This document shows, one piece after another, positions 1 through 16,485 of a stretch of DNA of 23,522 nucleotides (the first letter of the stretch is position 1; every line of letters starts with the position of its first letter). The DNA is from a virus. A program made the position numbers and the translations under genes. The notes below the pieces were generated by a model, which was not told the origin of the DNA, did not search any database, and saw only the letters and a program-made list of their open reading frames with translations. The DNA lies in IMG/VR virus record IMGVR_UViG_3300021512_000010, positions 1 through 23,522 of that record; one strand, given 5' to 3'.

Positions 1-390
1 CTTTCTGCATGTATTGCAACAGCAGTAGCAATATCACTTGCATCTACTAAAGCAGCTTTCTCGGCAACAGTTAGATGTTGATAATCACCTACATTAAGTC
101 CAGATAAATCATTATGGTCTGGTATTGTTATACCTGATATTGCATTATCTACGTAAGTTTGAGAAGCTATAACATCACAACCATGTGTATCATTTCTTTC
201 AGCATGTATTGCAACAGCATCAGCAATATCAGCAGCATCTACTAAAGCAGCTTTCTCGGCAACAGTTAGATGCTGATAATCACCTACATTAAGTCCAGAT
301 AAATCATTATGGTCTGGTATTGTTATACCAGCAACAGCATCATCAACGTAAGTTTGAGAAGCTATAATATCACAACCATGAGTATCATTT
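1..390 (-). repeat. Tandem 195-bp (65-residue) fibre stalk repeat
   Basis: Two adjacent nearly identical units occupy 1-195 and 196-390, and the next unit begins at 391 before diverging. The period of 195 bases is exactly 65 codons, so the frame is kept. Each encodes HAERNDTHGCD, SQTYVD, a PDHNDLSGLN stretch and GDYQHLTVAEKAALVDA. Partial copies of the same unit recur in the gene at about 1280-1385 and 1845-2103. High nucleotide identity points to recent duplication or recombination-driven homogenisation. Confidence 0.9.
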
Positions 391-2207
391 CTTTCTGCAT
401 GAGCTGTTAAAGCATCAGCGTTTGTTATGATATCAGTAGCGTTGGCTTCAATAGCTGTTGTTATTGTTGCTGTATCAACACCACCACCAGTACCAATTGC
501 TGAGCCATTAAGTAGTATAGTTCCAGTGAATTTATTCTCAGTAATGTTACCATCACCGAATACCATCTGGTTAGATTTGCTTACTCTTGCATCATAGCCA
601 AGAGCAGTTGAATTTGTGAATACAGTAGTATTAGCTATTGAAGAGTCACGAGAAGCCATAGCACCAAGGAATGTCATGTAAGTATCAGTTTTACTAGTGG
701 AATAACCTACTGTATCACCGTAACCTGCCAAGTCACCAAGTGCAGTATTGTTATCTGTTGTTGTTAGCTTTCCAAGGCTAAAGTAACCTATTCCACAATT
801 GTGGCTACCACTTGTTACTTGATTTAAGCTGTATGGAGCCAAACCAGTATTATTTATACCAGTGGTTAACTTACCTAAGCTACTATTACCCATTGCTATA
901 TTGTCGCCACCTGAAGTTACATCATCCAAACAAGAAGTTCCAATTGCAATATTTTTACTACCACTATTTTTACCAGCGTTTTTGCCGATTGCAATATTAC
1001 TAGTTCCTCCTGTCCCTAGCTTAGCAGCTTCGTAACCTATCGCTATACAACCATTACTACCTAAACTTTGGAGTAAGGTAGTTTGCCCTATTGCTATATT
1101 TTGATAGCCATATGTTGTAGCTTTAAGTGCTTCTCTACCTATCGCAATATTTTTATTACCAGTTGATAAAGCTTCTAATGCTTTGTAACCCATTATTGTA
1201 TTATCGTAAGCAGTTGTTACAGCTTCCATTGTATCTTTACCTACAAAGGTATTGCCAGCATCATCAAATAAATCTACAACAGGTATAGCAGCTATTGCAT
1301 CATCAACATATGTTTGAGAAGCTATTACATCACAACCATGTGTATCATTTCTTTCAGCATGTATTGCAACAGCATCATCAATATCAATAACAGTAGGCAT
1401 TGCTACGCTATCAAGCAAGATACTTCCAGTGAATTTATTCTCAGTAATGTTACCATCACCGAATACCATTTGATTAGATTTGCTTATTTTTGCATCATAG
1501 CCAAGAGCTGTTGAATTAGTAAAAGGTGTAGTGTTTGCAGTAACATTATCTCTTGAAGTATTAGCACCGACAAATGTCATGTTAGTATCTGTTATAGAAT
1601 TTGAATGCCCTAGATTGTTACCAAAACCTGCAAACCATCCTAAAGCTGTATTGTAGTCAGATGTTGTTAGCGAAGCTATCGCAGCTGCACCAATAGCGGT
1701 ATTATAACTACCTGATGTAAGAGAGCTTAAAGCATTGTAACCCATTAAAACATTTTGGGTAGCTGTTGTAATAACACTTAAAACATTATCACCAACAAAG
1801 GTGTTATACAAAGCATCATAATTAACAACCATAGCAATAGCTTTCTCAGCTACAGTTAAATGTTGATAATCACCTACATTAAGTCCAGATAAATCATTAT
1901 GGTCTGGTATTGTTACACCAGCAACAGCATCATCAACGTAAGTTTGAGAAGCTATTACATCACAACCATGTGTATCATTCAGTATAGCATGAGCTGCAAC
2001 TGCATCACTTATATCAGCAGCATCTACTAAAGCAGCTTTCTCAGCTACTGTTAGATGTTGATAATCACCATCATTTAAACCACTTAAGTTATTGTGCACT
2101 GATGTGCCACCGCCACCACCAGCAGTACCATCTTTTATAGCTTCAGCGTTAGCAAAGCTACACACAAGCAATAAAAATATTAGTAAAATATTTAATTTAA
2201 ATTTCAT
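1..2207 (-). CDS. Signal-peptide-bearing long tail-fibre/adhesin-like protein, 3' end beyond window
   Basis: An uninterrupted frame of 735 codons runs from the ATG at 2207-2205 off the left edge, so the C-terminus is missing. AAGGAG lies 7 bases before the ATG. Residues 1-21 form a Sec signal peptide (MKFK, a leucine/isoleucine-rich core, then SFANA before EA). The mature part alternates two module types. The first is a 65-residue stalk-like unit containing THGCD, SQTYVD, PDHNDLSGLN and GDYQHLTVAEKA, of a kind common in phage tail fibres. The second is a YadA-head-like block of short repeats (NIAIG, NTALG, STALGY) ending in SNQMVFGDGNITENKFTG, present twice. By family knowledge such proteins are trimeric and often end in an S74 intramolecular chaperone. 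A trimeric-autotransporter anchor is the alternative. Which one follows cannot be seen. Confident that it is real and fibre-like; its location on virion or cell is unknown. Confidence 0.85.
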   Translation of the reverse strand, partial: MKFKLNILLIFLLLVCSFANAEAIKDGTAGGGGGTSVHNNLSGLNDGDYQHLTVAEKAALVDAADISDAVAAHAILNDTHGCDVIASQTYVDDAVAGVTIPDHNDLSGLNVGDYQHLTVAEKAIAMVVNYDALYNTFVGDNVLSVITTATQNVLMGYNALSSLTSGSYNTAIGAAAIASLTTSDYNTALGWFAGFGNNLGHSNSITDTNMTFVGANTSRDNVTANTTPFTNSTALGYDAKISKSNQMVFGDGNITENKFTGSILLDSVAMPTVIDIDDAVAIHAERNDTHGCDVIASQTYVDDAIAAIPVVDLFDDAGNTFVGKDTMEAVTTAYDNTIMGYKALEALSTGNKNIAIGREALKATTYGYQNIAIGQTTLLQSLGSNGCIAIGYEAAKLGTGGTSNIAIGKNAGKNSGSKNIAIGTSCLDDVTSGGDNIAMGNSSLGKLTTGINNTGLAPYSLNQVTSGSHNCGIGYFSLGKLTTTDNNTALGDLAGYGDTVGYSTSKTDTYMTFLGAMASRDSSIANTTVFTNSTALGYDARVSKSNQMVFGDGNITENKFTGTILLNGSAIGTGGGVDTATITTAIEANATDIITNADALTAHAERNDTHGCDIIASQTYVDDAVAGITIPDHNDLSGLNVGDYQHLTVAEKAALVDAADIADAVAIHAERNDTHGCDVIASQTYVDNAISGITIPDHNDLSGLNVGDYQHLTVAEKAALVDASDIATAVAIHAE
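521..615 (-). repeat. Head-block end repeat, copy 2 of the fibre gene
   Basis: Nearly identical to 1424-1518 at an offset of 903 bases (301 codons). It encodes NSTALGYDA, then SNQMVFGDGNITENKFTG. It closes the second YadA-head-like block of the fibre gene. Confidence 0.85.
1424..1518 (-). repeat. Head-block end repeat, copy 1 of the fibre gene
   Basis: Partner of 521-615. It encodes the same NSTALGYDA...SNQMVFGDGNITENKFTG segment at the end of the first, shorter head block. The duplication covers a whole head domain boundary, so the gene appears built by duplicating a head-plus-stalk cassette and then expanding the repeats of one head. Confidence 0.85.
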
Positions 2208-2218
2208 TATTATTCTCC

Positions 2219-2797
2219 TTATTCTATTGCCGTAGCACCACGAGTAATGTAAACAGCTAATTCAGAAGCAGATATTACATATAAATCTTGTGTGCGAAGC
2301 TCAACATAAACTCTACCTTTACATGGTCTAGCATTGCCTTCTATTACAGCAGCACTACCAAAGCTTATCCAAAATACATCTTCATCACCAGCTGATTTAA
2401 TCTCAACGTATTTTTGGTTGTAATCAGGATTCCCAGCATATAAATCTTCAACAAGTGTTGATACACCAGCAGCTAACGTTACTTTGGCAACATTAATAGT
2501 AGGTGGTGATAATGGTGCACCTTGTATTGCTTCTACTAAGCCAATATTCTCAGAAGCAATATTAACTTTTACATTATCATCAGTATCTAGTTGAGCAGTA
2601 GCAGGGTCACCAGCAGCATCTTTATAAACTGGAAAAGCTTCTACTGTTATAGAGCCAATCGTTGCTGTTGTAGGCATTGGATTAGTAGGTGACATTAAAG
2701 TGCCATCAGGGAATTGTATCATTGGGTGAGAAGGGTCAGCTACCTGCCCAAAACACACAGTTGTTGTTAAAAGTAAAAGAATAAGTAATCTTTTCAT
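2219..2797 (-). CDS. Small secreted beta-rich phage protein, function unknown
   Basis: 192 residues, ATG start with AAGGAG 7 bases upstream. Residues 1-17 (MKRLLILLLLTTTVCFG) look like a Sec signal peptide; the cysteine is not in a lipobox, so a lipoprotein is unlikely. The first part of the mature protein is proline/threonine-rich. The second half (about 105-190) is a beta-type domain with YVEIKSAGDEDVFWISFGSAA and LYVISASELAVYI. This pattern resembles small phage structural or capping domains that report per-subunit contacts, but I recognise no named family. It sits 11 bases upstream of the long fibre gene and is probably co-translated with it, so it may be a partner or accessory of that fibre. 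Real gene: high confidence; role: unknown. Confidence 0.8.
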   Translation of the reverse strand: MKRLLILLLLTTTVCFGQVADPSHPMIQFPDGTLMSPTNPMPTTATIGSITVEAFPVYKDAAGDPATAQLDTDDNVKVNIASENIGLVEAIQGAPLSPPTINVAKVTLAAGVSTLVEDLYAGNPDYNQKYVEIKSAGDEDVFWISFGSAAVIEGNARPCKGRVYVELRTQDLYVISASELAVYITRGATAIE

Positions 2798-2829
2798 CGT
2801 AATTCTCCTTGAATATTTTACTTGCTTGA

Positions 2830-2851
2830 CACTCTTAGTATACTACAAGTG
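2830..2851. promoter_or_regulatory. Imperfect palindrome in the intergenic gap, possible operator with -10-like TATACT
   Basis: The 92-base gap 2798-2889 is the widest gap among the distal tail genes. It holds an imperfect 22-base palindrome centred on the perfect core AGTATACT with matching CACT and AGTG outer arms. On the coding strand TATACT resembles a sigma-70 -10 box, but no good -35 box lies 16-18 bases upstream. Candidate internal promoter or operator for the last two genes; tentative. Confidence 0.3.
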
Positions 2852-2889
2852 AGCTTTGTTAAAACCATTTACGGCTGTAAATTCAACAG

Positions 2890-4137
2890 CTAGTTAAAGA
2901 AGGGACGTATGGTTGTTGTGTAGTGATGGAATGTTAATGTATTTGCAGCCAAATCGCTTCTAACTGTAAGTTGAATGGCATCATCAGTATCCAAAGCAAC
3001 AACAATAGTTCCAGATAGAGTATATGGTTGATTAGCATTTTTAAGATATTGCCCCATAGTGGTAGGTGGTTCATCTACACCATTAACTTTAGCTGAGCAA
3101 TGAATAGTAGTATTGGCAGATGTTGCTGATATTGTTGCATGCCAATCTATCTCAAAGTATCTACCATCTTGCAAACCATCATATATTAAAGCTGGTGTTG
3201 TGCTTGCAGTAAAATTCTCAGTTATATCATTATTGAAAATACCCATAATTGGATAATAAGTATCTGCCAAGGTGCATACTGTATCTGATGCTGTTGTTAA
3301 ATAAGCAAAAGTTCCAGATTTCTCACCAGCACTAACTACAATCCAAGTTACACCATCGTGCATTTTAAGCACTTTGTTTACAGAATCAAACCAGAATGTA
3401 GAATGAGCACCACCAATAGATACAGGGGCAGTTGCCATGTGTGGTATAGCAAAGTAATCACCTATTACTGGTGTTGCAGTTCCAACATAACCAATATAAG
3501 CATCTTCATCTGTGCCATCACCAACTGTTACTGTTTTAGTAACTTGCATCTCATCACCATGTGGGTCAATTGTATCAGCAATATGAGCTAGTAAATCACT
3601 ATCTAAAGCAGCATCTAATATTCCATAACCACTTAATGTTGTTGGAGTATCTGTTAAGCTTGCAAATTCTTTTTCAAATAAACCAAGTAGTGTCCAGCTT
3701 GCAGAAGTAGGTTTACCATTTAAGTTTGAATAATCTTTCTCACCTAAATCATTTAAAGTAAAAGAAGCATTATTAGGGATATCAGTATCTCTAGCAAAAC
3801 CAGTATGCCCAGAAGCATCGTAATCTAAGCCAACTAAGCTATCATGTGGAATTGTACCACTTGCGTATGAGCTCGTGCCTTTTCTCCATCCACCAAAGTA
3901 ACACCATAAAATAGGAGCAGTTGGTGTAGCATTATTCCAATATAATTGCCCTTCAGAAGCCACAGCGGTAGGCTCTACTGTGCCACTTGCTATAAAACCA
4001 CTGTGCAATGTCCAGTTGGCAACATCGTAAGGTGATAATCGCTCAGGCAAGTTATATGTTTGAGCATTAACAACAAAACTTATTGTTGCTAACATTATTA
4101 ATATTGCAATACCAAATATTAGTTTTTCATTCTTCAT
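2890..4137 (-). CDS. Signal-peptide-bearing short-fibre-like protein with C1q/TNF-like C-terminus
   Basis: 415 residues, ATG start with GGGGAG 6 bases upstream and one base after the preceding stop. Residues 1-25 are a Sec signal peptide (MKNEK, long hydrophobic core, VVNA before QTYN). The middle (about 100-260) carries phage fibre-type linkers such as SLVGLDYDASGHTGFA, LLAHIADTIDPHGDE and a segment ending WFDSVNKVLKMHDGVTW. Residues 275-415 look like a jelly-roll of the C1q/TNF type, beginning GTFAYLTTASD and ending HHYTTTIRPFFN. Such C-terminal domains trimerise and bind ligands in phage fibres. That assignment is from pattern only. It lies between a secreted LamG gene and another secreted protein. 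Confident in the gene and signal peptide, moderate in the C1q-like fold. Confidence 0.8.
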   Translation of the reverse strand: MKNEKLIFGIAILIMLATISFVVNAQTYNLPERLSPYDVANWTLHSGFIASGTVEPTAVASEGQLYWNNATPTAPILWCYFGGWRKGTSSYASGTIPHDSLVGLDYDASGHTGFARDTDIPNNASFTLNDLGEKDYSNLNGKPTSASWTLLGLFEKEFASLTDTPTTLSGYGILDAALDSDLLAHIADTIDPHGDEMQVTKTVTVGDGTDEDAYIGYVGTATPVIGDYFAIPHMATAPVSIGGAHSTFWFDSVNKVLKMHDGVTWIVVSAGEKSGTFAYLTTASDTVCTLADTYYPIMGIFNNDITENFTASTTPALIYDGLQDGRYFEIDWHATISATSANTTIHCSAKVNGVDEPPTTMGQYLKNANQPYTLSGTIVVALDTDDAIQLTVRSDLAANTLTFHHYTTTIRPFFN

Positions 4138-4138
4138 T

Positions 4139-4966
4139 TTATTCTCCCCTATTCCAATCTAATTTTAATTCACCATCAGGCTTCATATGTGTTTTACCAT
4201 CTGTTTGCATGATAACTCTTCTTTGTATCGGTGCATATGCGTAAGGTGCATTATATGGTGTAAAGTTACTTGTCCATTTTGCCCCTTTTGTTATTCTAAA
4301 TTCATCTAAGCCAAACGCTATATTACCAAATGCGTTACCACTTACAAAAATATCACCTATGGTTAATACACTAAAATCAATAGCTTGTGATGTAGATACA
4401 ACTGATTCATCCAACACTCCATTCATGTAACTTTTTAACGTTAATCCTTCTCTAACAAAAGCGATATGATACCATTGGTTAGGCAAGTAATTTACATACA
4501 AAGCTGCACCAGGCTCCCAATAAACAAATTCATATTGTGAGTGCACTGGTGTGTGGTTTATAGCCCAATTAGGTGGATTAGATATTCTATTTGCACTATT
4601 ACACATAATGTAACCACTACCACCAAATTGCTGAAAATCTATGTAAATCCAAAAATCAATTGTGTAATCATCACCTGCTTCAATATTTGGTATATTTACA
4701 TATCGTAAGTAATTCCAATTGTATGAAAATCTTTTATCTTCTGCCGAGAAGTAATATTGGCTGAATTTACCACCATCTACAATTCTAGGTATACCAACAC
4801 TGCCAGCATTAGCAGAATAAGTATAAGCGTAGAATGGCATGTAATCAGGAATAAAATCTTGTGTATTATTCACACCATCAAAATGTTGATGGAATATTAT
4901 CTCATCATCAAAAGCAAAAGCAGAAGAGCTCAAGCAAATAAGAATTATTAGTAATAACTTTTTCAA
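4139..4966 (-). CDS. Secreted LamG/concanavalin A-like lectin-domain protein
   Basis: 275 residues from a TTG start at 4966-4964. I chose it because AAGGAG lies 8 bases upstream, it follows the previous stop by one base, and it gives a perfect signal peptide (MKKLLLIILICLSSSAFA, then FDDE). An in-frame ATG at 5017 lacks a comparable SD and would bury the signal peptide. The mature protein is one LamG-type jelly roll at about 25-230: HQHFDG near the start, YTIDFWIYID, NQWYHIAFVREG, LKSYMNGVL and GLDEFRITKGAKWTSNFTPY. The short tail ends with KTHMKPDGELKLDWNRG. LamG domains bind carbohydrate or protein ligands, and this subtype is common in phage adsorption proteins. Export suggests action in the periplasm, on the cell surface or in the medium. 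Confidence 0.85.
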   Translation of the reverse strand: MKKLLLIILICLSSSAFAFDDEIIFHQHFDGVNNTQDFIPDYMPFYAYTYSANAGSVGIPRIVDGGKFSQYYFSAEDKRFSYNWNYLRYVNIPNIEAGDDYTIDFWIYIDFQQFGGSGYIMCNSANRISNPPNWAINHTPVHSQYEFVYWEPGAALYVNYLPNQWYHIAFVREGLTLKSYMNGVLDESVVSTSQAIDFSVLTIGDIFVSGNAFGNIAFGLDEFRITKGAKWTSNFTPYNAPYAYAPIQRRVIMQTDGKTHMKPDGELKLDWNRGE

Positions 4967-4967
4967 T

Positions 4968-5318
4968 TTAAGCACTCCTTTTATATACTCTGTAATATAG
5001 TTTAGAAGCATTATCACTTCCAGAATTGATTACTGTGAATTGTGTGCTTGAATCTCTTACTATTTCAATCTCACCTTGTTGGCCAAGAGTCATTGAAGCG
5101 TCTCTTTCAACCCAGTAAAATACATCATAGTTTACTGTAAGCAAATCATCAATAGTAACTGCTACACCAGCTGATGTTCCAGCCAATGTTACACTGCCAG
5201 CTTCATCTCCGTAAGCCATGTTTAAAGCAGCTCTAATCTCTTCGTATACTTCTACTGTTGGTAATCCTGATACTCCTTGTGCTATTAATGCGTCAAGGTA
5301 AGGTGTTGATATTGCCAT
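4968..5318 (-). CDS. Small tail-region protein of unknown function
   Basis: 116 residues, ATG start with GGGGAG 8 bases upstream; that SD overlaps the stop of the previous gene. The N-terminal 45 residues are helical (YLDALIAQGVSG, YEEIRAALNMAYGDEAGS) and the rest is beta-rich, ending SKLYYRVYKRSA. No signal peptide and no family I recognise. Between an Ig/LamG tail protein and the secreted LamG protein, it is probably a virion component or assembly factor for the adsorption apparatus. It is the last gene before the run of exported proteins. Confidence 0.7.
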   Translation of the reverse strand: MAISTPYLDALIAQGVSGLPTVEVYEEIRAALNMAYGDEAGSVTLAGTSAGVAVTIDDLLTVNYDVFYWVERDASMTLGQQGEIEIVRDSSTQFTVINSGSDNASKLYYRVYKRSA

Positions 5319-5321
5319 TTG

Positions 5322-6653
5322 TTATACTCCCCATTTATATAATATGTAAGCTTGTAAATCAGCTTCTTCTGTTACTGTTAATTTTTTGTGATATACCATT
5401 AATTCTGCAATGTAGCCACCATTATCTAAATTATAAGAATAGCCAGCTACAGCACCTATCATTGCTGATACAACACCTGTATTTCTTGCAGTTGGCACAT
5501 CTGTTATTATATTGCCATTTGTATTGAGTTTACGTGTAGTGCCATCATAAGATGCAATTACTCGCATTGGTGTTAAAATTGCTGGTGTAGACTCTAAATC
5601 ATTAGTCCACCAAAAGTGCCTAATGCCTGTTAGGGTTGAATGAACACCTAAACTTAAATTCAAATATCCAGGTGTTCCCATACAAATTAAAGTTTGATTT
5701 AATTCTGGTGATTTCCACACACCTACAATAGTATATGGTTGATTTCCAGTTGGAATAACACCAGTTGGTATATTCATCCCATTTGTAAATAATAATACAT
5801 TTTTACTATTTAACGTTGCACTATTAGTTACAGGCTCTACACCTGTGCTTGTTGCATGATAATTATTACCACTCTTATCATCCCATTGCGATACTGCTCC
5901 ACCACTCTCTGTGATTGTAGAAGCATCATTTGCATCATACCAAGCAACTACACCTTCGGGTGGCACAGGCTCTGGCAATATTGTTAAATAAACACCATTA
6001 TATTTTGTTGTATCAGATGATACTGCAGTTACAATTGCTTTGCCAGCTCCAACAGTAGTTACAACTCCACTACTATCAATAGTAAACACATCTTCGTTAC
6101 TACTTTGCCATGTAACACTAGTATCAGCACCTACATCAGCAATAACAGTAGCAGTTAAAGTTGTAACAGGTAAACTACCTTTTGTAATATCTGATAATGG
6201 TGTTCCATCTATACTTATTGAAGTTACTTTAGCTTCTATGTTTGCTTTAAAACTTACAAGCAAAGAAAAGCTTATCTTGCCTTGCACTGTAATAGTATCT
6301 GGTATTACTAATTTAATATCAAAAGCTTTTGTTTCAAGCGAGTCTAATGTAAATGCAATTGGTGAGCTCCAATCATCAATAGGAGTATATGCAACATCAG
6401 TGCTCATTTTTGCTTGTACCCATTTCTCAGTGACTACTTTCTCACCAGCACCATCTTTTATTATTGCTGCTTCAAACATTGTATTGCTTGGCATTAAATC
6501 GGCTCTAAGCACATTAATCCTTACTTCTGAGCAATCTCTACTATCATTATTTGTAACAGTTATTCTTGTTGCTGAAGCATTCCTACCAGCTATCGTTAGT
6601 CCTGATAGATTTGGTGAGAATGTTACATCATATGGTTTTTGTATTTGCGTCAC
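5322..6653 (-). CDS. Tail adsorption protein with Ig-like (Big_2 type) and LamG-like domains
   Basis: 443 residues from a GTG start at 6653-6651 (AAAGGAG 6 bases upstream, 11 bases after the preceding stop). A longer in-frame version from 6755 would run deep into the previous gene and has no better SD. Domain order: N-terminal beta region (about 1-130) starting MTQIQKPYDV; a bacterial Ig-like domain at about 135-220 (VTSISIDG, VTWQSSNEDVFTIDSSG, GKAIVTAVSSDT); a proline linker (PEPVPPEG); then a LamG-like domain at about 225-443 (VAWYDANDASTI, WDDKSGNNYHA, and YIAELMVYHKKLTVTEEADL near the end). No signal peptide, unlike the LamG protein encoded just downstream. Likely a virion-associated receptor or glycan-binding protein at the tail tip. 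Domain calls are from motifs only. Confidence 0.8.
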   Translation of the reverse strand: MTQIQKPYDVTFSPNLSGLTIAGRNASATRITVTNNDSRDCSEVRINVLRADLMPSNTMFEAAIIKDGAGEKVVTEKWVQAKMSTDVAYTPIDDWSSPIAFTLDSLETKAFDIKLVIPDTITVQGKISFSLLVSFKANIEAKVTSISIDGTPLSDITKGSLPVTTLTATVIADVGADTSVTWQSSNEDVFTIDSSGVVTTVGAGKAIVTAVSSDTTKYNGVYLTILPEPVPPEGVVAWYDANDASTITESGGAVSQWDDKSGNNYHATSTGVEPVTNSATLNSKNVLLFTNGMNIPTGVIPTGNQPYTIVGVWKSPELNQTLICMGTPGYLNLSLGVHSTLTGIRHFWWTNDLESTPAILTPMRVIASYDGTTRKLNTNGNIITDVPTARNTGVVSAMIGAVAGYSYNLDNGGYIAELMVYHKKLTVTEEADLQAYILYKWGV

Positions 6654-6664
6654 TTGTATCTCCT

Positions 6665-8164
6665 TTAATAAGCACTGTAAATATGATTTTCTTTTGGTGC
6701 AGTTTGATAAAATGTGCCGAATGTGCCGAATGAACCTAGAAAGCATCTTAGCCACGTTCCATTACGTAACACTTGCCCATCATACCAAGGCTCGTATTCA
6801 TCACCTTCTGGTTGTGTTAAGCCTGTGCTGGCACTCATCGGTCTGTCCCAACGATAGAGTGGTGGAATAGCATCCGTGTAACTCCATGTGCCTGACGTGC
6901 CTAATGATGTAGGATTTATTCTAATTTTTTTATTTCCAACAAAAAAGTAATATCTATCATCAGCAGTATCATCATGTCCTTCATTACTCCATATTCCTGT
7001 AGAGCCAACATTATATTTGCTTGATAAGTATATATTACCATTCAATAAATTTACAGCACTTAAACGATAATCACTAGTAGAACCATATTTAATTCTGCTA
7101 ATAAAAAGTGGTTGGTTATTCATTACAAATAATCTTGTATAATCAATATCTTGTGTGCCACCATCAGCTTGATAGCGAGCAATAAAAGCTAACATATAAG
7201 CATCTGCATCAGATAAATAAGTGCCATCCCAATCACATAATTCCCACGTTGCACTAGCACCTACCATTAAACAATATTGGCAATCAGAATAAACAAACGA
7301 GCCACCCCTTGCTATTACAAACAAGCCACCGTTATCTTCAAAAAGTCTAGTATGTCTATTATATCTTCTGCGATAAGTATAACTTTGTGCACCATTCATC
7401 ATATTTGGATAAATATATTTTGATATAGGACTCATCATAGTAATAGATGGATAATTAGGAAAATCACCAGTTCCAGCTGGGTCACTCGGCACATTATAAA
7501 TAGTTTCGTTGATAGCTTTCCAAACGTAATATCCGCTTGGCTTTTTATAGCTTATATAATCCCCAAACTGCACTTGGAATGGTGCAGGTAAAATAACAAA
7601 GTTACGGTCTATACTATAACCAACTTGTGCAAGGTTAGGAGTGCCAGTATCAGGTAAAACATAATCAGGCACACTTAGCCAAAAGCCAATAACAATAGAA
7701 GTTGATACTTCAATTAAACAGCCATTGCCAGCTTCAAAATCTTGAGCCTTAACATTTGATACGTTTAAGGTTAATGATTGCCCTGTTACCCTATCGCTTA
7801 CGTTTAAAGTTGAAGTATTAACTTTTGTTACAGTAGCAGGGTGATATAACATTTTAATATTACCAACAAGATTGGCAATCATAGCCAAAGCAGTATTATT
7901 TGGATTTTGATTTGTAACAGCTCCAGTATTTTGTGGAGCAACATAAACTAATGATTGCTTGCTATCTAATTCAACAAAGCCAAATTCAGGAGCTTGACTC
8001 CAATTACGATATTGAATAACACCAACAACTTGACCAATATTCATTTTTGTAGCAAATAAGGATACTGCACTTACTTCAATAGAAGAATTAGTTGATATCT
8101 TAGCTTTATACCAACCAGTAGAAGGTGAGTTGATTGTTGTGATGATTGCAGATATATTTGCCAC
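6665..8164 (-). CDS. Large distal tail protein, beta-rich, function not assigned
   Basis: 499 residues from a GTG start at 8164-8162, chosen because AAGGAG lies 6 bases upstream; the SD overlaps the stop of the preceding gene. Residues 100-170 read like an OB-fold-type insert (HPATVTKVNTSTLNVSDRV, then an FEAGNGCLIEVS strand), as seen in phage hub and central fibre proteins. The later part is rich in aromatic and glycine residues (YTYRRRYNRHTRLFEDNGG, WELCDWDGTYL, GSFGTFGTFYQ) and could be a propeller-like or other beta fold. No signal peptide, no enzymatic motif seen. From gene order after hub-like genes it is probably part of the tail tip or central fibre. Confidence 0.75.
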   Translation of the reverse strand: MANISAIITTINSPSTGWYKAKISTNSSIEVSAVSLFATKMNIGQVVGVIQYRNWSQAPEFGFVELDSKQSLVYVAPQNTGAVTNQNPNNTALAMIANLVGNIKMLYHPATVTKVNTSTLNVSDRVTGQSLTLNVSNVKAQDFEAGNGCLIEVSTSIVIGFWLSVPDYVLPDTGTPNLAQVGYSIDRNFVILPAPFQVQFGDYISYKKPSGYYVWKAINETIYNVPSDPAGTGDFPNYPSITMMSPISKYIYPNMMNGAQSYTYRRRYNRHTRLFEDNGGLFVIARGGSFVYSDCQYCLMVGASATWELCDWDGTYLSDADAYMLAFIARYQADGGTQDIDYTRLFVMNNQPLFISRIKYGSTSDYRLSAVNLLNGNIYLSSKYNVGSTGIWSNEGHDDTADDRYYFFVGNKKIRINPTSLGTSGTWSYTDAIPPLYRWDRPMSASTGLTQPEGDEYEPWYDGQVLRNGTWLRCFLGSFGTFGTFYQTAPKENHIYSAY

Positions 8165-8174
8165 TATACACTCC

Positions 8175-9314
8175 TTACCACACATCTACACCATCGAGAA
8201 AGGTTTGTGCGTCACCATATGAATACTGATGCCTCACACCACCTAACGATGCTATGGTTGGGGATATATTAAATCTATCACTTTGGAAATTCATAATCAT
8301 TCCACTACATAGATAAGGGTTAAAAACTACGGAAGCTGCTAAGCCACCTTCTAATACTGAAGCTATCATTGTGGCTGCAATACTTTCTACATCAGTAAGT
8401 AAATCTTTATCAGTGCCAATAGTTGTAGAATATGTAATCCTGCCCCGTTTAGCTACATCAGCAGCATCATTAACAGAAGATGATATTAATGTTCCACCTA
8501 CTACATCTAATCCAACACATGATACTGTATTAAAACTTGAGCTATCACTTATACTTCTAGTTGCAGTATAAATAACTCTATCATCAAGCAAAGGAATATC
8601 ATCACCTAGAACTAAATTATTATTATTAGCACCCGAAGTGATACAACCAGCAGGACTTGCTTGCCATGTATGCTCTCCTGAGATTGCTTTATTGCTTGCA
8701 TCATATTTGTTACCAATAGAATTGAATATACCAACTCCATCTTGGTCGCTATAACATAATACCTGCCCACTATCTCTAAATGCTTGATTTGCTTGACGAT
8801 GCATCTCAAAATATTTTGTGTGCTCTGTTGTTTTTACACATGCATCTTCACGCTTCATAGTTACACGGAAATCAGAGCAATTGATATTAATAGCTCCACC
8901 GTTTGCACCTTGGCTTTCTATGCTTGAAGTAATTCTACCAAAATATATTGGTATCTCTTCACCAGGTATTCCACAATAAATTGTAAGCACTTTTTGGCTT
9001 GGTGATAATATGCCAGGATTTTCAGTTCCCCACACACTCCACACTTGAGCTTTTTGAATTGTAAGAGAAGCACTATCGTTAGAGCCGATGCTTTTACGTT
9101 GCACTTGGAAGTAAGAGCAAGTAACTAAATCAACAGTGCCACTATCAGTTTCTATTGTTACATAAGCGTTATATTTTCTTGCCTTGCTTGAAGATGTTAT
9201 TTCAGATATTACAGATTTAGAAAATGTAAAAGTTTGCAACGGTAAATAAACGTGTGAATAATTCAAACGTTGAGAACTAAGTTTTCCACCTGCACTATTT
9301 CCACCAAATATCAC
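8175..9314 (-). CDS. Probable tail hub/baseplate-like protein
   Basis: 379 residues from a GTG start at 9314-9312 with AAGGAG 8 bases upstream. The N-terminal half contains LTIYCGIPGEEIPIYFGRIT followed by a beta strand ending ININCSDFRVTMKRE. This is the pattern of phage hub proteins, where strands carry a G-x-I motif and a conserved cysteine-aspartate before a helix. The second half is less recognisable and ends DAQTFLDGVDVW. The position two genes after the tape measure is where siphophages encode the hub that closes the tail tube and carries fibres. Family assignment is inferred from position and pattern. Confidence 0.7.
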   Translation of the reverse strand: MIFGGNSAGGKLSSQRLNYSHVYLPLQTFTFSKSVISEITSSSKARKYNAYVTIETDSGTVDLVTCSYFQVQRKSIGSNDSASLTIQKAQVWSVWGTENPGILSPSQKVLTIYCGIPGEEIPIYFGRITSSIESQGANGGAININCSDFRVTMKREDACVKTTEHTKYFEMHRQANQAFRDSGQVLCYSDQDGVGIFNSIGNKYDASNKAISGEHTWQASPAGCITSGANNNNLVLGDDIPLLDDRVIYTATRSISDSSSFNTVSCVGLDVVGGTLISSSVNDAADVAKRGRITYSTTIGTDKDLLTDVESIAATMIASVLEGGLAASVVFNPYLCSGMIMNFQSDRFNISPTIASLGGVRHQYSYGDAQTFLDGVDVW

Positions 9315-9326
9315 GTTGGATGCTCC

Positions 9327-9704
9327 TTATAATACTTCTACAATAACAAAACCTATGTTTACTTCATGCCAATCACTACTACCATTTCTAACTACCTGCT
9401 TAGCAAGTGTTAAATCCACACTACAATTAAATCTATCATCATCTGATATTGTAAGCCATTCAAACACAGTTGCATGGTAAACTATCTTTTTTAAAATTTT
9501 ATATTGAGCGGAAGATATTGTTACTGTAATATTTTTGTTTGCTCCTACTCTTGATTTTCTCCATAAAGTTACAACAGGTATTCCAGAAAGTGTGTTAGCA
9601 ACCTTTTTTGCACGAGCAATATGTATATCTAAATTAGCAGGCAAAGTAACAGTGTAATCACTATGAGATAAACCTGATTCAGTTGTTGGTGTAATTTTAA
9701 TCAT
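9327..9704 (-). CDS. Small distal tail protein
   Basis: 125 residues from the ATG at 9704-9702, chosen because AAAGGAG sits 7 bases upstream. A longer in-frame start at 9746 would overlap the tape measure gene and add residues not preceded by an SD. The protein is beta-rich with no signal peptide: MIKITPTTESG, then VTLPANLDIHIARAKKVAN, ending HEVNIGFVIVEVL. Directly after the tape measure it holds the place of a distal tail (Dit-like) or tail-tip protein but is shorter than classical Dit. Function inferred from order only. Confidence 0.7.
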   Translation of the reverse strand: MIKITPTTESGLSHSDYTVTLPANLDIHIARAKKVANTLSGIPVVTLWRKSRVGANKNITVTISSAQYKILKKIVYHATVFEWLTISDDDRFNCSVDLTLAKQVVRNGSSDWHEVNIGFVIVEVL

Positions 9705-9717
9705 TATATATCTCCTT

Positions 9718-12492
9718 TTATGAATAAACCAAAGGTGTTGGCTCACCCTGTGCTAATTGCACTAAGCTATCTCGTAATAATTTTGATAAAGCAACTAACA
9801 TCTCATTCTCAGATATTCTTGATGCTAAGCTTTCATCTTTTTGCAACGACACTATTATCTCACCTTTAAGCTTCTCTATTTCTTTATCATTGACATTAAC
9901 ATTTACATCAATATCTTTATTGAATCTGCCTAGCTCTATATCTTCTAAGCCTTTTATGCCGAAACCATTCTGAATAGTATTTAATGCTTCTTGGCTTATG
10001 CCTATTTCAAGGCTTTTATCACCAGGAAAACCACCAAAGCCAGGTGCCTTCATAGCGCCTACTCGTTTTGCCCATTCTTCTACTGATTCATCATCAACTG
10101 TAATCTTAACTTTTTTATCCGTAGCAAAAATATCATCAAACTGTTTTTTTGATTTAGCAAACATGCCTTCTAAGCCACCTGTTAGTTTTTCGAATGAAGC
10201 CTTAATAGGTGCAAAATCAGGAGATTTAAAACCAAAAGAGAATTTATCAGCATTAAACTCACTTAAAATTGCTTCGGCTGCACCCCTTGCAAGTAATTTT
10301 GTTTCAGCAAGTGACTTTTTGAGTTTGCCTGCTACATCTAATGCTTTATACATCTCTATGGCTTCAAGCCCATTCTCGGCAGTTTCGCTAACATAGCTTA
10401 GTGGCTTTAATATTTTGGCTAACTTATTTGCCCAACCCAATAAAGTATCATTCAAGCCCTCTACCATTTTTAAAAATCCAGTTTGAACAAAAGAAAACAA
10501 GCCAACAAAAGCAAACTTTGTTTTGGTAATGTATGTATTAATACTGAAGGATTTAATTGTTTTGCTTATCTCTTTTGCAATGTTACCTATAACAGGCATT
10601 AAACTAGTAGCACCTTTTACAAGGTAATTAAATAAGCCTTTAGCAAAATTAAAAGTAAGTTTAAAACCTTTAGCAACAAAATCAAACAAATCAATAATAA
10701 ATACTTGAAGCTTAGATAAGCTTGTTTCGATGAAGCTAATCGCTTTATTTATATTAGTATAAATCTTCTTTGTGATACCATTGATGCCACCCATGTTTTT
10801 AAACACTTTTGTTAAGTATTTATCTATGTAATCTACACCTTGTAGCACCTTATTTACAGCAATTAAAGTGTAATCCCATAGTTTATTCCAATCAATATTA
10901 GTAGCAACCTTATACATAGCCTTACCAATTAATACTACAGTATCGTAAACAGCTTTAAAGCTATTCATTGCTTTTTGCTTTATCTCGATTGTATCAATGC
11001 TTCGTGACCATTGTTTAATTTGTAGTGTAGCATCATCCACGAGTTGTTTACTTTGTGTAAATACTCCTGAAATAATTGCAATAGCAGAAGGCACAGAAGC
11101 AGATATAAAACCAAATATTGCTTTGGTGCTAGCAAAAAATGCTTTGTTAATATCAGGCAAAAACTTTAATACATTTTTAATAATAGGAACTACAAGTTTT
11201 AAACCTTTACCAAGCCCTTTAATATAGCCTCTATAAGCTTTCATAGCTTCAACGAATAGAATATCAATAGAAGCTAACATATCAGGTATAACAGCACGGA
11301 TTGCACGTAAAGCATCTATAGTAGTTTTCATCATGTTTATTACAAACTTCTGAGCATAACCACCACTACCTAATGATGATAAAGCTTGGGAGAATGTATT
11401 GCCAATAGTTGAAGCAAGTGTTTTACCGAAGCTTCCACCTAATGTTGTTGATAAAAAGTCTCTAAAGCCTACAACTTGTTTTGTAACAGTATCCCATAAA
11501 CCAGTATCATTAACTTGCTTTTGAAACACAGTCCATATATCACCAATAGTAGTTACAGCACCTACAGTAGTGTTAGCTGCCTTCTTCATAGCACCTTCAT
11601 ACTTGGTACCTAGCGTATCAACGATAGCCTCAATAGCTTCATTAACATCCAAGCCAACATTACCAATGCTACCAAGTTGCTTACCAGTTAGGTTAAACTT
11701 CTTACCTAATATTTCATAAGCATTAATGTTGCGCTCAGCTAATTGTTGAAGCTCTTCTGCTGTAACTTTGCCTTTTAATTTCATTTGTCCGAGTGCTCTT
11801 ACGATACCATCAAAATCAGCACCTAAAGCAAAGGATGCATTTCCAAGCTTTTCAAACATGCCAGCCATAGGGTCAAAGCCGTAAGTTTTAAGCCTAATCA
11901 TGCCATCAGTAACTTCTTTAAGTGTTAAAGGTGTTTTAGCACCAAAACTAACAGCCCAGTCCAGAGCAGCTTGCGAAGCACCACCAGCACCAAAAATAGC
12001 ACCCATTTTAACATCTAATAATTCAAAATCTGTTCCCACTTTGTATAATGATTGAGTAAAATTAACAGCAAAATCTCGGGTAACACTCCACGCAAAATTA
12101 CCTAAATCTTTAACACGACCCCATATATAATCTAACGAGAACTTGAAACTATCATACAAGTAGCCAGATATTGATTTGATAGTATCCCATGAAAAATCTG
12201 CAGCATATTGAATACCACTCCAAAGAGTATCAAACAAAAAGGTTACAGCATCTCTAACAGCAATAACAGAATTATACATTGCTTCAAAAGCTAAAGTGAT
12301 AGGAGAAAAAGCCAAGCTAGTTAAAGTAGAAGCAGCTCTAAACAATAAACCAAAGCCGCCAGTAGCCAAGTCCGTAGCAACTCCAACTGCTGCAATGGAT
12401 TTACTTACAAGTTCCAAACCTTGATTTAAACCTGTAAGTGTTTGTGAATACTTATCTACTGCATTCAATACAATATTAATAGCTGCAGCCAT
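9718..12492 (-). CDS. Tail tape measure protein
   Basis: 924 residues, ATG start with AAGGAG 7 bases upstream. It sets tail length and is ejected with the DNA. The N-terminal 150 residues are long, hydrophobic and aromatic (INIVLNAVDKYSQTLTGLNQ first). At 155-345 is the conserved tape-measure domain: FELLDVKMGAIFG, FGAKTPLTLKEVTDGMIRLK, FDPMAGMFEKLGNASFALGA, KVTAEELQQLAERNINAYEIL. A long helical middle with hydrophobic segments (400-720) follows. The C-terminal part has SLEIGISQEALNTIQ and a charged coiled-coil-like stretch ending the protein. At about 1.5 angstroms per residue it would measure a tail near 140 nm. It follows the chaperone genes, as expected. A hairpin terminator lies just upstream. 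Confidence 0.93.
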   Translation of the reverse strand: MAAAINIVLNAVDKYSQTLTGLNQGLELVSKSIAAVGVATDLATGGFGLLFRAASTLTSLAFSPITLAFEAMYNSVIAVRDAVTFLFDTLWSGIQYAADFSWDTIKSISGYLYDSFKFSLDYIWGRVKDLGNFAWSVTRDFAVNFTQSLYKVGTDFELLDVKMGAIFGAGGASQAALDWAVSFGAKTPLTLKEVTDGMIRLKTYGFDPMAGMFEKLGNASFALGADFDGIVRALGQMKLKGKVTAEELQQLAERNINAYEILGKKFNLTGKQLGSIGNVGLDVNEAIEAIVDTLGTKYEGAMKKAANTTVGAVTTIGDIWTVFQKQVNDTGLWDTVTKQVVGFRDFLSTTLGGSFGKTLASTIGNTFSQALSSLGSGGYAQKFVINMMKTTIDALRAIRAVIPDMLASIDILFVEAMKAYRGYIKGLGKGLKLVVPIIKNVLKFLPDINKAFFASTKAIFGFISASVPSAIAIISGVFTQSKQLVDDATLQIKQWSRSIDTIEIKQKAMNSFKAVYDTVVLIGKAMYKVATNIDWNKLWDYTLIAVNKVLQGVDYIDKYLTKVFKNMGGINGITKKIYTNINKAISFIETSLSKLQVFIIDLFDFVAKGFKLTFNFAKGLFNYLVKGATSLMPVIGNIAKEISKTIKSFSINTYITKTKFAFVGLFSFVQTGFLKMVEGLNDTLLGWANKLAKILKPLSYVSETAENGLEAIEMYKALDVAGKLKKSLAETKLLARGAAEAILSEFNADKFSFGFKSPDFAPIKASFEKLTGGLEGMFAKSKKQFDDIFATDKKVKITVDDESVEEWAKRVGAMKAPGFGGFPGDKSLEIGISQEALNTIQNGFGIKGLEDIELGRFNKDIDVNVNVNDKEIEKLKGEIIVSLQKDESLASRISENEMLVALSKLLRDSLVQLAQGEPTPLVYS

Positions 12493-12505
12493 TATAACTC
12501 TCCTT

Positions 12506-12534
12506 ATAAAAAAGGGGATGTGTGGTCTCCCCTT
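12506..12534 (-). terminator. Rho-independent terminator-like hairpin between tail chaperone and tape measure
   Basis: On the coding strand AAGGGGA pairs with TCCCCTT (7 bp, 9-base loop; arms 12528-12534 and 12512-12518), followed by a T-rich run that includes the last stem bases. It lies 9 bases after the chaperone stop and about 20 bases before the tape measure start. Probably partial, attenuating read-through into the tape measure gene, which needs few copies. Confidence 0.6.
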
Positions 12535-12543
12535 CGTGTTTAC

Positions 12544-13178
12544 TTAATTCTCACTAGCAAAAGTAATAGGCTGTTGCTGTTGTTGCCTTGCCTCTTGCTC
12601 TGCCTGATGCTTCTGTTCAGGTGTTTCCGCTTCCTTCATCTTTAACGCAACTCTTATTGCTAAATCATCGTGCCCTCTATCTATAACATCATTAATAGCA
12701 ATTCCATCATCTTTGGCTATTATTGCAATAGCATAAAGCACTGGGTCGTTATCAAGTTGCGATATTACTTTTTTATATTCTTACTCTTTAATGCGTTACT
12801 GAACAAATCAGTATTAGAAATTACAGCTGTCATTAATTCAAGGTATCTTATTCCGTTTGATTTTTCTAATTCTACAAAATCTTCTTCTGTAAAATCAATC
12901 AAACTTGCACGAAACAAAGCATCATTGAATGCATCAGCATCTTTGTACTTCTCTCGTAACTTTTTAATAATTTTAGGTGTTGGAACTTGACCACGAATAT
13001 ATTGTTTCCAAGGCTCAATGTAAATTTCAACTATTTTTGCTTTACATTTTTTAACAACTTCTTTACCTGTTAAAAATACCTTCTTTTCTACAATTACTGC
13101 ATCTTCAATTTTTGCTTTTGATGCTTTAGCCTGTTTTTCTACCCTAGTTGCTTTTTTTGCTTTAATCTTTGTAACCAT
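12544..13178 (-). CDS. Tail assembly chaperone long form (G-T type) by -1 ribosomal frameshift
   Basis: Predicted 211-residue product: 137 codons read from 13178 to 12768, a slip back by one on A_AAA_AAG, then 74 further residues from 12768 to 12544. The extension begins VISQLDNDPVLYAIAIIAK and ends with a Gln/Glu-rich tail (EARQQQQQPITFASEN). The downstream segment has only a GTG (12741) with no SD as a possible own start, which argues for frameshift expression. In lambda, gpG and gpGT assemble around the tape measure and recruit tail tube subunits; gene position immediately before the tape measure fits. Frameshift efficiency is unknown. Confidence 0.8.
12765..13178 (-). CDS. Tail assembly chaperone short form (gpG-like)
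   Basis: 137 residues, ATG start with CAGGAG 9 bases upstream. The first 30 residues are lysine/alanine-rich and basic (MVTKIKAKKATRVEKQAKAS). The remainder is helical and includes KKLREKYKDADAFNDALFRA and FTEEDFVELEKSNGIRYLEL, ending LKSKNIKK just after the slippery site. It is the product when no frameshift occurs. Its length is close to lambda gpG (140 residues). No sequence family was recognised beyond size, position and frameshift signal, which together make the call strong. Confidence 0.85.
   Translation of the reverse strand: MVTKIKAKKATRVEKQAKASKAKIEDAVIVEKKVFLTGKEVVKKCKAKIVEIYIEPWKQYIRGQVPTPKIIKKLREKYKDADAFNDALFRASLIDFTEEDFVELEKSNGIRYLELMTAVISNTDLFSNALKSKNIKK
12768..12774 (-). promoter_or_regulatory. 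Slippery heptamer A_AAA_AAG for programmed -1 frameshift
   Basis: In the zero frame the mRNA reads ATA AAA AAG TAA. The heptamer A_AAA_AAG is the same as the E. coli dnaX slip site, one codon before the stop. After slipping, the next codon GTA (12768-12766) is in the frame of the downstream coding segment. A 6-bp hairpin (GCTATT/AATAGC) begins about 35 bases downstream, farther than is usual for a stimulator. Confidence 0.85.
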
Positions 13179-13296
13179 TTTTTGTATCTCCTGTTTACAG
13201 AAACGAAGCTTACACTTCTATCTCCTGTATATTTATTTATTTCTTTATTTATTTATTTAGAAGGCTTAGGGGGTTTCCCCCCTTTACCAGAATTAA
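13179..13296 (-). promoter_or_regulatory. Leader of the tail chaperone gene: hairpin, AAAT repeats, duplicated SD, start-stop
   Basis: 118 non-coding bases between major tail protein and chaperone. In transcription order they contain a GC hairpin (13282-13269), an AAAT-type tetranucleotide run (about 13260-13229), and two copies of ACAGGAGATA (13228-13219 and 13194-13185). The second copy is the chaperone's SD. The first is followed after 6 bases by GTG TAA (13215-13210), a minimal start-stop. Possibly translational control of the chaperone; no promoter recognised. Confidence 0.5.
13269..13282 (-). other. GC-rich hairpin with GAAA tetraloop 3' of the major tail protein gene
   Basis: On the coding strand GGGGG-GAAA-CCCCC, 14 bases after the stop codon. 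The GNRA-type loop and all-GC stem make it very stable in this AT-rich context. No U-tract follows, so it is not a standard terminator; a 3' mRNA-stabilising or processing element is likelier. Confidence 0.6.
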
Positions 13297-14325
13297 TTAT
13301 TGTCCTGACCAAAATGGTCTATCTTGAATACTACCAGAAAGCTGTTGCACAACGAATGAGCCAGGCTCAACGCTGACACCACCAGCAAAACTACCTACGA
13401 ATAAGAAGTAGTGTCCAGAAGGAAGCTCAAGCTTAACAGCTGAATAACCTTGGCGGTTATACATAGCGTCAAGTGCTTTTGCATCAGTGAATAGTTGGTT
13501 GAATGTAAATGACCAGTTATCAATGCTTGATTCAGAAGGTCCACCAGTAAAGGTAACAGCACTAACACTAGAAGTATTAGGTGTAACACTCCATTGTTGA
13601 GCATCACCTACTGTTGCCAATGCACCAGAGTCCCAATATTTACCAGAAAAGTATACATCTTTAGCAACATCACCTGTGTGAATTTTTGGTAAAGCTTCAG
13701 ATACAACAATACCACCAATAGAAGGTAACATTTGATAAGATATAGAAGCCCATTCTCTTTCGCCAAAATCCATCTCATCAGAAGCAATTATGCCAGCTGT
13801 GCTATCAATTCCAACATAAACTATAAGCAATTCATCTACAGCGATTAAAGGCTTCTCACCAGCTGCTGTTCCGAAAGTAGATAGCAATGCAGATTTACCT
13901 GTTCCAGCAGTAGTATCTGTTCCACTAACTTCTGATACAACACCAGTTCCAGTATTAACTACAATAGCGTTCCAAACAGCCTGAGTTGCAGCTGGTCGAG
14001 TTATTGCCAAAGATGCATTAGCTGTAATACCTGCTGTAACGTTAGCAACTAACATGTTACCTGCTGATATAATTGCTGTATCTGCTACTGTTGAGCTTAC
14101 ATCTGCTCCATCAAGAATACCATTAACATAAGCAAAAGGATTTGCTGCTGGTCTAGAATTTATCATTCTATCACTTCCAAGCAAATACATTCTGTTTACT
14201 AATGTCTCTCCTGCATAGCTGTAAGAAGCTTGAACTGTTAAAGCAGTTGTGATTGCTGTTCCATCATTAAAACTAAGGCTCACCTTAGCATTTTTACCCG
14301 TCTGGGCTACACTTGGTACTAACAT
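13297..14325 (-). CDS. Probable major tail (tube) protein
   Basis: 342 residues, ATG start; the SD TAGGAG is 12 bases upstream, a longer spacing than its neighbours. The sequence is Ala/Thr/Ser/Gly-rich and beta-type throughout, typical of tube subunits: MLVPSVAQTGKNAKVSLSF, GITANASLAITRPAATQAV, EWASISYQMLPSIGG, VKLELPSGHYFLFVGSFAGG, VQQLSGSIQDRPFWSG. The closing part, a QLSGSIQ strand after a GxFxV segment, fits tube proteins that end with a beta strand. It is larger than lambda gpV, so an extra domain is possible in the middle (about 60-190). Position between tail-completion genes and the chaperone supports the call, and the hairpin after it suggests high expression. Family not proven. Confidence 0.75.
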   Translation of the reverse strand: MLVPSVAQTGKNAKVSLSFNDGTAITTALTVQASYSYAGETLVNRMYLLGSDRMINSRPAANPFAYVNGILDGADVSSTVADTAIISAGNMLVANVTAGITANASLAITRPAATQAVWNAIVVNTGTGVVSEVSGTDTTAGTGKSALLSTFGTAAGEKPLIAVDELLIVYVGIDSTAGIIASDEMDFGEREWASISYQMLPSIGGIVVSEALPKIHTGDVAKDVYFSGKYWDSGALATVGDAQQWSVTPNTSSVSAVTFTGGPSESSIDNWSFTFNQLFTDAKALDAMYNRQGYSAVKLELPSGHYFLFVGSFAGGVSVEPGSFVVQQLSGSIQDRPFWSGQ

Positions 14326-14353
14326 AATTGTTATTTTCTCCTATTATTTTATT

Positions 14354-14818
14354 TTAAACGTGTTTTGCGGCTGTAAAAACTTTGGAAGCAATCCAACCTG
14401 GAAAATCCGAAATTGTTATTGAAGTTTGTTGCTCATTTACATAAGTCAAATTTAATTGAGTAGCACTTGTAGTAATAGAAGTTTCTATATTATTAAAAAC
14501 TAAATCTGATAAATCTTCTGTTGTTTCAAAGCCATTCAACGTTGTAATTTTACCTACTGTTGTTTCTTTATCTTCTGTGCAATATAAAGCTGATTCCACA
14601 TCAAACTGAACTAACACTACGTTATTCTCTACTGGTCTTCGATAACCTTGAATAGTTAAGCCTACCCATGGTGCTTTGCTTACCTTTGGTGGGTTTTTTG
14701 CATCAATATGAACATAAATAGAAATAGATTTACCATACTTAGCTTGGCAAAATGCTTCTATCGCTACATCATTTGCTAATGCAGTTGCAATATCATTTAA
14801 CACTACTGAAAGCTTCAT
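14354..14818 (-). CDS. Tail completion/terminator protein (gpU-like position)
   Basis: 154 residues, ATG start with GGGAG 7 bases upstream and two bases after the previous stop. Opens MKLSVVLNDIATALANDVAI and has an alpha-beta pattern: a helix, then IYVHIDAKNPPKVSKAPWVG, then strands such as NVVLVQFDVESALYC. The motif with P-W-V/I before a strand is familiar from tail terminator proteins that cap the tube at its head end. Placement directly before the major tail protein matches lambda gpU and SPP1 gp17. No catalytic features. Assignment from order and fold impression. Confidence 0.65.
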   Translation of the reverse strand: MKLSVVLNDIATALANDVAIEAFCQAKYGKSISIYVHIDAKNPPKVSKAPWVGLTIQGYRRPVENNVVLVQFDVESALYCTEDKETTVGKITTLNGFETTEDLSDLVFNNIETSITTSATQLNLTYVNEQQTSITISDFPGWIASKVFTAAKHV

Positions 14819-14820
14819 TT

Positions 14821-15519
14821 TTATTCTCCCACTCTTAATCTATCATTCAACATCTCTATAAAGGTTTTTTGGAAGTTCTTACCAATATCACCTTCTATAG
14901 CTAGCTTATCATACAGTGGACGTGGCTTAGAATTTAAAACAGTTGAACGTTTAACATACATACCCAAAGCAGCTAAATACCTTCTACTTCTCTCTGGGTC
15001 AAGCAAGTTAAAACTTCCACCAGTTTGGAACTGCCTCATCTTCTTTTTAACTTTATCTTGTTGAGTTTCCATTACACCAACTACCATACTATCAGCTTTG
15101 ATGTTGTAGCGAGTGCTCTTTACAAGCCTTCCACCAACAGGATAAATCTTAGGTGGTTTAATCATGCCTGTGCGTGAATAACCTTTCTTTCGCTTATTAC
15201 CTTTTTTTGTAAAAGCTTTCTTAGGTCGATTGGCAGCAATTAAACCTGCCATTGACACAGCACCAAATTTTCCAAACCAATTAGGATAATCACGATGTTT
15301 AGCCCAACCATATTTATTATCTTCATATATTGATATGATTTCTTTTCTAGTTCGAGCTGCTGTAACACGTAAGGCTGCTTTTCTCATCTTTTGAATATAT
15401 GAAGTAGTTGCTAAGCCAAACTTAACAGTATCACTTGGATTAGTAGAAACAGCTTGAGCTATTAATTTCTCAATAGTTGTTGCTTGTTCTAATTCATGTT
15501 CAACATCAAGAGTAATCAT
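14821..15519 (-). CDS. Tail completion/head-tail joining protein (gpZ/HK97 gp10-like position)
   Basis: 232 residues, ATG start; a GAGG sequence lies about 10 bases upstream. The protein is basic. The N-terminal half is helical with RKAALRVTAARTRKEIISIY and WAKHRDYPNWFGKFGAVSMA. A lysine/glycine-rich basic stretch (KKAFTKKGNKRKKGYSRTG) follows. The C-terminal part carries DPERSRRYLAALGMYVK and SKPRPLYDKLAIEG, the R-P plus terminal helix arrangement seen in minor tail Z, HK97 gp10 and Mu gpG-type proteins. In those phages it helps finish tail ends for joining to heads. Family call tentative. Confidence 0.65.
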   Translation of the reverse strand: MITLDVEHELEQATTIEKLIAQAVSTNPSDTVKFGLATTSYIQKMRKAALRVTAARTRKEIISIYEDNKYGWAKHRDYPNWFGKFGAVSMAGLIAANRPKKAFTKKGNKRKKGYSRTGMIKPPKIYPVGGRLVKSTRYNIKADSMVVGVMETQQDKVKKKMRQFQTGGSFNLLDPERSRRYLAALGMYVKRSTVLNSKPRPLYDKLAIEGDIGKNFQKTFIEMLNDRLRVGE

Positions 15520-15526
15520 TATCGCT

Positions 15527-15871: not shown

Positions 15872-16082
15872 CTGTATCCCCCTGTAATTTATTCTTTGCT
15901 TGAATCTTAAAAGCTTTCTCTATTGCTATATCAATACATTCAGCTACTTCATTTGCAGTATCATAAGGTGGCAATGCTAAGTATGTTAAACTAAAGTTAT
16001 CATCATACTTGTGTAACAATGATAATCTGCTATCAAAAGAAGCGTTAGCTTTCTTATCAAGCAAAAAATCATTGTTACTCAT
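15858..16082 (-). CDS. Small head-tail adaptor-like protein, unassigned
   Basis: 74 residues, ATG start with only a weak SD (AGGG about 11 bases upstream, beside the previous stop), so it may rely on coupling. Sequence is mixed helix, beginning MSNNDFLLDKKANASFDSR, with EVAECIDIAIEKAFKIQAKN near the end. The place between decoration-like protein and stopper is where head-completion or adaptor proteins occur. No family recognised. Confidence 0.6.
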   Translation of the reverse strand: MSNNDFLLDKKANASFDSRLSLLHKYDDNFSLTYLALPPYDTANEVAECIDIAIEKAFKIQAKNKLQGDTDGNI

Positions 16083-16087
16083 TGAAA

Positions 16088-16423: not shown

Positions 16424-16452
16424 TTGTTTTCTCCTATCTAGAATTTTGTAAT

Positions 16453-16468: not shown

Positions 16469-16485
16469 TTAGTAATTGTTATTAA

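Follow-up and report, generated by a model that had tools for sequence, protein, structure and literature searches.

The analysed window, a virus record of 23.5 kb, has a GC content of 36%, and its minus strand reads as a tailed-phage late gene string in which terminase, portal, protease-capsid fusion, tape measure and further tail genes precede a fibre block (Table 1). No tRNA genes were found in the 23.5 kb. The block genes lie on one strand with 1–92 nt between neighbours, and no terminator-like site was detected on the coding strand inside the leader-bearing part. Two tail-region proteins of 506 and 379 aa are cysteine-rich (1.4 and 2.1 per 100) and have neither an INPHARED match nor a significant Pfam or PHROGs match.

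Table 1. Features of the window and of its fibre block
Feature	Position	Strand	Details
Terminase	20674-23298	-	
Portal	18464-20101	-	
Protease-capsid fusion	16486-18525	-	
Tape measure	9718-12492	-	Pfam TMP_3
Tail-region protein	8175-9314		379 aa
Tail-region protein	6665-8185		506 aa
Fibre block	1-6653	-	after tape measure and further tail genes
LamG/Big_2 fibre gene	5322-6653	-	no leader; 443 aa from GTG 6653
116-aa gene	4968-5318	-	no leader; immediately upstream of the leader-bearing genes (boundary)
LamG (ConA-like lectin) protein	4139-4966	-	275 aa; TTG start; Pfam Laminin_G_3, 2.2e-11
Sec-type leader of the LamG gene	4913-4966	-	18 codons; MKKLLLIILICLSSSAFA/F; score 46.1
415-aa fibre-like protein	2890-4137	-	leader followed by a conserved region; C-terminal part variable
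Sec-type leader of the 415-aa gene	4063-4137	-	25 codons; ...SFVVNA/Q; score 51.1
192-aa protein	2219-2797	-	no family assigned
Sec-type leader of the 192-aa gene	2747-2797	-	17 codons; MKRLLILLLLTTTVCFG/Q; score 39.6
YadA-like repeat fibre	1-2207	-	735 aa in the window, runs off its edge; PHROG tail spike, 4.7e-35
Sec-type leader of the YadA-like gene	2145-2207	-	21 codons; ...LLVCSFANA/E; score 52.3
Segment replaced between the two phages	2897-5853	-	flanked by near-identical sequence

Leaders and bodies of four consecutive genes

Four consecutive genes of the block begin with Sec-type leaders, as the original prediction had claimed. All four ORFs are present, and all four pass a home-made, rule-based Sec/SPI scorer that uses n-region charge, an uncharged h-region and the −3/−1 site (scores 39.6–52.3), whereas none of the other 20 window genes scored does. 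Known E. coli leaders passed in 18 of 18 cases, with scores of 29.5–47.4. Only one of 91 annotated late CDS from eight other phages passed, at 20.9 and thus under every positive, and in more extensive collections of ORFs, taken from related viral loci, 5 of 918 and 8 of 692 passed at a score of at least 34. At this background, about 1% at most, four consecutive leaders would arise by chance with a probability of the order of 1e-7.

The leaders sit at real translation starts, each of the four being preceded by its own SD site 6–8 nt upstream (AAAAGGAG for the LamG gene, then GGGGAG, AAGGAG and AAGGAG). For the LamG gene the ORF tool had placed the start at GTG 5017; the SD-preceded TTG 4966 is the likelier one and was preferred. 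The h-regions of the window leaders are strong, with mean hydropathies as high as 3.2, and the putative cleavage sites read AFA/F, VNA/Q, CFG/Q and ANA/E, although for the YadA-like leader the top-ranked site lies two residues later than ANA/E. Thus, the four leaders look like real Sec signals of the typical signal-peptidase-I type, for which export and cleavage are predicted. The boundary of the leader-bearing genes is sharp, also as proposed: the 116-aa gene is leaderless, as is the preceding LamG/Big_2 fibre gene, whose product is likely the virion receptor-binding protein.

The bodies behind the leaders had been described as fibre and lectin modules, and mostly they are. Fibre-family sequence matches were obtained for the LamG protein and the YadA-like repeat protein, as well as for a WD-like 504-aa protein of a related phage described below; for the 415-aa protein they are weak and confined to its counterpart from that relative, and the protein itself has no Pfam or PDB sequence match. 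The YadA-like label is based on the repeat pattern and the PHROG tail-spike matches, but no Pfam YadA head or anchor was detected in this fibre, and the C1q-like label found no support in Pfam, PHROG and further sequence searches. Searches of INPHARED, PHROGs and NCBIfam gave nothing for the 192-aa protein, and Pfam nothing significant. For this protein and the 415-aa one, AlphaFold2 produced low-confidence models (mean pLDDT 35 and 33).

Exchange and drift between two near-identical phages

One close relative, the 38 kb contig IMGVR_UViG_3300013103_000027, is 97.6% identical to the window over positions 5854–23522 and 99.4% identical over 1–2896; queries with the terminase and the 192-aa, 415-aa and 1284-aa proteins found no further close relatives in viral contigs. 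A leader-bearing block, sought in related phage genomes, is present in this contig and extends further than in the window: a run of six neighbouring genes, all of which score as leader-bearing, reaches the lysis genes; five of them are fibre-like and one is holin-like. Their order is LamG, 403-aa, 192-aa, 1284-aa YadA-like fibre, 504-aa WD-like and 154-aa holin-like protein, followed by a pair of short genes (129 and 105 aa) that encode hydrophobic segments, and by an Amidase_3 endolysin that lacks a leader. Cleavage sites in the relative's block leaders read LDA, AFA, LQA and YCA. The holin-like protein (L015:11629-12093) has a leader-like N-terminus ahead of a transmembrane segment. The YadA-like fibre is full-length here (1284 aa, L015:6181-10035) and contains many near-identical NDTHGCDVIASQTYVDD / HNDLSGLNVGDYQHLT repeats, with one cysteine each, which cross-match within the gene. 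Elsewhere in the relative (L016:4047-5276), a ParB-like N-terminal part and an MT-A70 methyltransferase domain are joined in one protein.

Between the highly similar flanks, a segment has been replaced. It takes in the 116-aa, LamG and 415-aa genes as well as the leaderless fibre in its C-terminal part; this fibre contains one LamG-like region in the window and two in the relative. Both leader genes of the segment (LamG and 415/403-aa) carry leaders in both phages, so that the leaders are maintained across the cassette swap.

Comparison of the 415/403-aa gene pair showed how the leaders themselves drift. Within the leader, 35 of 75 nt differ, evenly over the codon positions (13/10/12), which alters 17 of 25 residues, whereas differences in the next 165 nt are mainly at third positions (12/6/24). 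Among simulated stop-free variants with an equal number of changes only 2.7% still scored as leaders, or 10% if the same sites were changed, indicating that the leader property was kept while the sequence was not. The 415/403-aa leader is a free sequence with a maintained property, as expected of signal peptides. Moreover, 32 nt of the window's LamG leader are identical to the leader of the relative's 504-aa gene (L015:10130-10161). Since these leaders precede different bodies, leader DNA has recombined at least once; within the window, the view that the leaders did not arise by duplication of a single start still applies.

Homologues, anchors and host

Homologues of the block proteins differ in their leaders between phages and bacteria. 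YadA-like fibre homologues from IMG/VR (80 loci) had leaders in 0 of 84 ORFs and those in named phage genomes in 0 of 8, while 29 of 38 YadA-like-repeat ORFs in bacterial genomes carried one, most of them in Bacteroidota. LamG homologues in four phages had no leaders, and the only scoring WD-like homologue among 22 from viral contigs was judged by eye to be spurious, lying inside the mature region. Leaders are thus absent from the sampled phage homologues and common in the bacterial ones, indicating that this phage carries a cellular architecture in a phage gene string. For the 415-aa family no bacterial relative was found in a sequence search. A terminase alignment covered 80 loci at 28–37% identity, most of them too short to extend into the fibre region. 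Full-text literature searches returned no described case of a leader-bearing tail-fibre block in tailed phages, and DGR target proteins of phages have been reported to lack signal peptides (PMC6199706).

The original prediction had left open secretion or surface display of the set. The full-length 1284-aa homologue has no match to a YadA anchor and ends in ...ALDGILNP; the fibre bodies contain no transmembrane helix beyond the leader and no outer-membrane anchor or barrel; the block proteins have no LPXTG or wall-sorting motif with a C-terminal transmembrane segment, and the block cleavage sites lack a lipobox cysteine. Together, these absences make release more likely than stable surface display. 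Disulphide formation or glycosylation as the reason for export was considered and dropped, the cysteine content and sequons of the block being not clearly outstanding. The 1284-aa repeat protein contains 12 bacterial-type sequons.

Cleavage before Q is a feature pointing to Bacteroidota, and such a host was suggested by two of the four leaders and by the mostly Bacteroidota bacterial homologues. It was set aside because SD-like sites precede 16 of 19 window genes but none of 14 genes of a Flavobacterium phage. Leader lengths of 17–30 and short n-regions would fit a diderm host.

Possible roles and nearest known systems

As the related phage fibres sampled are leaderless and these bear leaders, the block fibres probably act outside the cytoplasm. 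What lies beyond the leaders themselves, from export and cleavage to their timing and any later role, we infer as follows. In the late phase, the gene string that encodes the tail proteins would also yield fibre and lectin adhesins; these would cross the host Sec translocon and have their leaders cut off by signal peptidase I. In a two-membrane host the anchorless mature proteins would gather in the periplasm and exit at lysis, any display before lysis needing some way through the outer membrane; with a one-membrane host, secretion would be direct. Once outside the cytoplasm, they could bind cell-surface glycans. Their most likely use would be to occupy receptors on the producing cell, on debris and on neighbours, which would save virions from being wasted and exclude competing phages, with addition to virions after export as the second-ranked use. 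This ranking follows T5, whose purified receptor-binding protein pb5, added to cells, prevents later T5 infection (PMC9586334); the exported T5 exclusion lipoprotein Llp, encoded beside it, also speaks for such a role. We give even odds to the reading as late Sec-exported adhesins, with receptor occupation as their most likely use. That fibre genes with and without leaders were exchanged in a single cassette suggests a receptor specificity common to both.

Several features bear on other readings. The bodies are of virion type, which speaks against free adhesins, and a conserved post-leader region with a variable C-terminal part would also fit a fibre docked on the virion. Tail fibres might thus be exported through Sec, processed and docked, either outside the cell or in the periplasm during lysis, completing the virion there; such maturation would suit a block of phage fibre modules placed between tail and lysis genes, the 415/403-aa pair with its conservation directly after the leader and its diverged C-terminal part, and the matched specificity suggested by the swap. 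However, the leaderless LamG/Big_2 fibre could already serve the usual receptor-binding role, the sampled homologous fibres of other phages have no leader, and the literature searches gave no tailed-phage precedent. To our knowledge, no tailed phage docks fibres after export, and we consider this route rather unlikely. Strong h-regions would also be in keeping with hydrophobic N-termini that stay uncleaved and serve as inner-membrane anchors of the fibres or as docking pegs, but signal-peptidase-like sites close the block leaders, lengths of 17–30 are typical of leaders, and the mostly unrelated leader sequences are ill-suited to a specific peg, leaving this reading improbable.

We give a similarly low probability to cargo that serves the infected or lysogenic cell through adhesion, aggregation or biofilm formation and not the infection cycle directly. 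The bacterial homologues bear leaders, and the Bdellovibrio MAT fibres are both leader-bearing and surface-displayed (PMC10769870), but the genes stand in a late string beside lysis genes, no anchor was found, and the scanned proteins of the relative's 38 kb, a contig that may be incomplete, included no recognisable integrase or repressor. That the leaders reflect wrong start codons or chance hydrophobic N-termini is very hard to credit: one of the four starts is a TTG, yet every leader start has an SD site, the leaders persist across the cassette swap and the background is low.

Beyond the preferred reading of released adhesins, it is possible, though doubtful, that a tailed phage exports its own fibre family via Sec and so finishes or equips its particles, or arms its surroundings, outside the cytoplasm, with the set swapped together with a cytoplasmic virion fibre. 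By textbook account, tailed phages assemble every fibre in the cytoplasm. A late string with export signals on five neighbouring fibre genes would mean that some of them either finish particles outside it or set receptor-binding proteins free, to serve as a weapon or a shield. It also yields a simple scanning rule for phage genomes, namely to seek fibre genes with leaders.

Leaderless tail fibres and spikes of other phages (phrog_4636, phrog_6002 and LamG fibres) have the same repeat and lectin modules and the same position between tail and lysis genes, and differ from the block genes in that their sampled homologues lack leaders. In filamentous phages the virion proteins pIII and pVIII have Sec or membrane-targeting leaders and are assembled at the membrane, but these phages are not tailed and assemble by extrusion through the inner membrane. 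The endolysin Lys44 of fOg44 and the T4 antiholin RI are phage proteins exported over the inner membrane during infection (PMC6116005); they have lysis functions, whereas the block encodes fibres. T5 Llp and Cor are small exported superinfection-exclusion lipoproteins, and Llp is encoded next to the receptor-binding gene (PMC9586334). They resemble the block in having an exported product beside a receptor-binding gene; the block proteins, in contrast, are large, have no lipobox and are themselves receptor-binding-like, and Llp is expressed early whereas the block proteins would be late. With PblA/PblB of streptococcal prophages, a phage tail protein serves as a bacterial surface adhesin, and SMART predicts a signal peptide in pneumococcal PblB (PMC4508584); here a single tail protein stands against a run of separate leader-bearing fibre genes.

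The closest known system is that of the Bdellovibrio bacteriovorus MAT proteins, to which the block shows a resemblance in layout. These fibres have a signal peptide, a conserved N-terminal domain of ∼130 aa and variable, phage-fibre-like adhesive tips, and occur as many paralogues, with an S74 chaperone in 13 of 21 members and others lacking it (PMC10769870). No S74 chaperone domain was matched in proteins of the window or of the relative's block. The 415/403-aa pair, with ∼105 conserved aa after the leader and a variable C-terminal part, may follow the MAT layout; such a conserved stretch was not seen in other block genes. MAT proteins are the products of a bacterium, which presents them on its surface to make contact with prey, whereas the block belongs to a phage late gene string.
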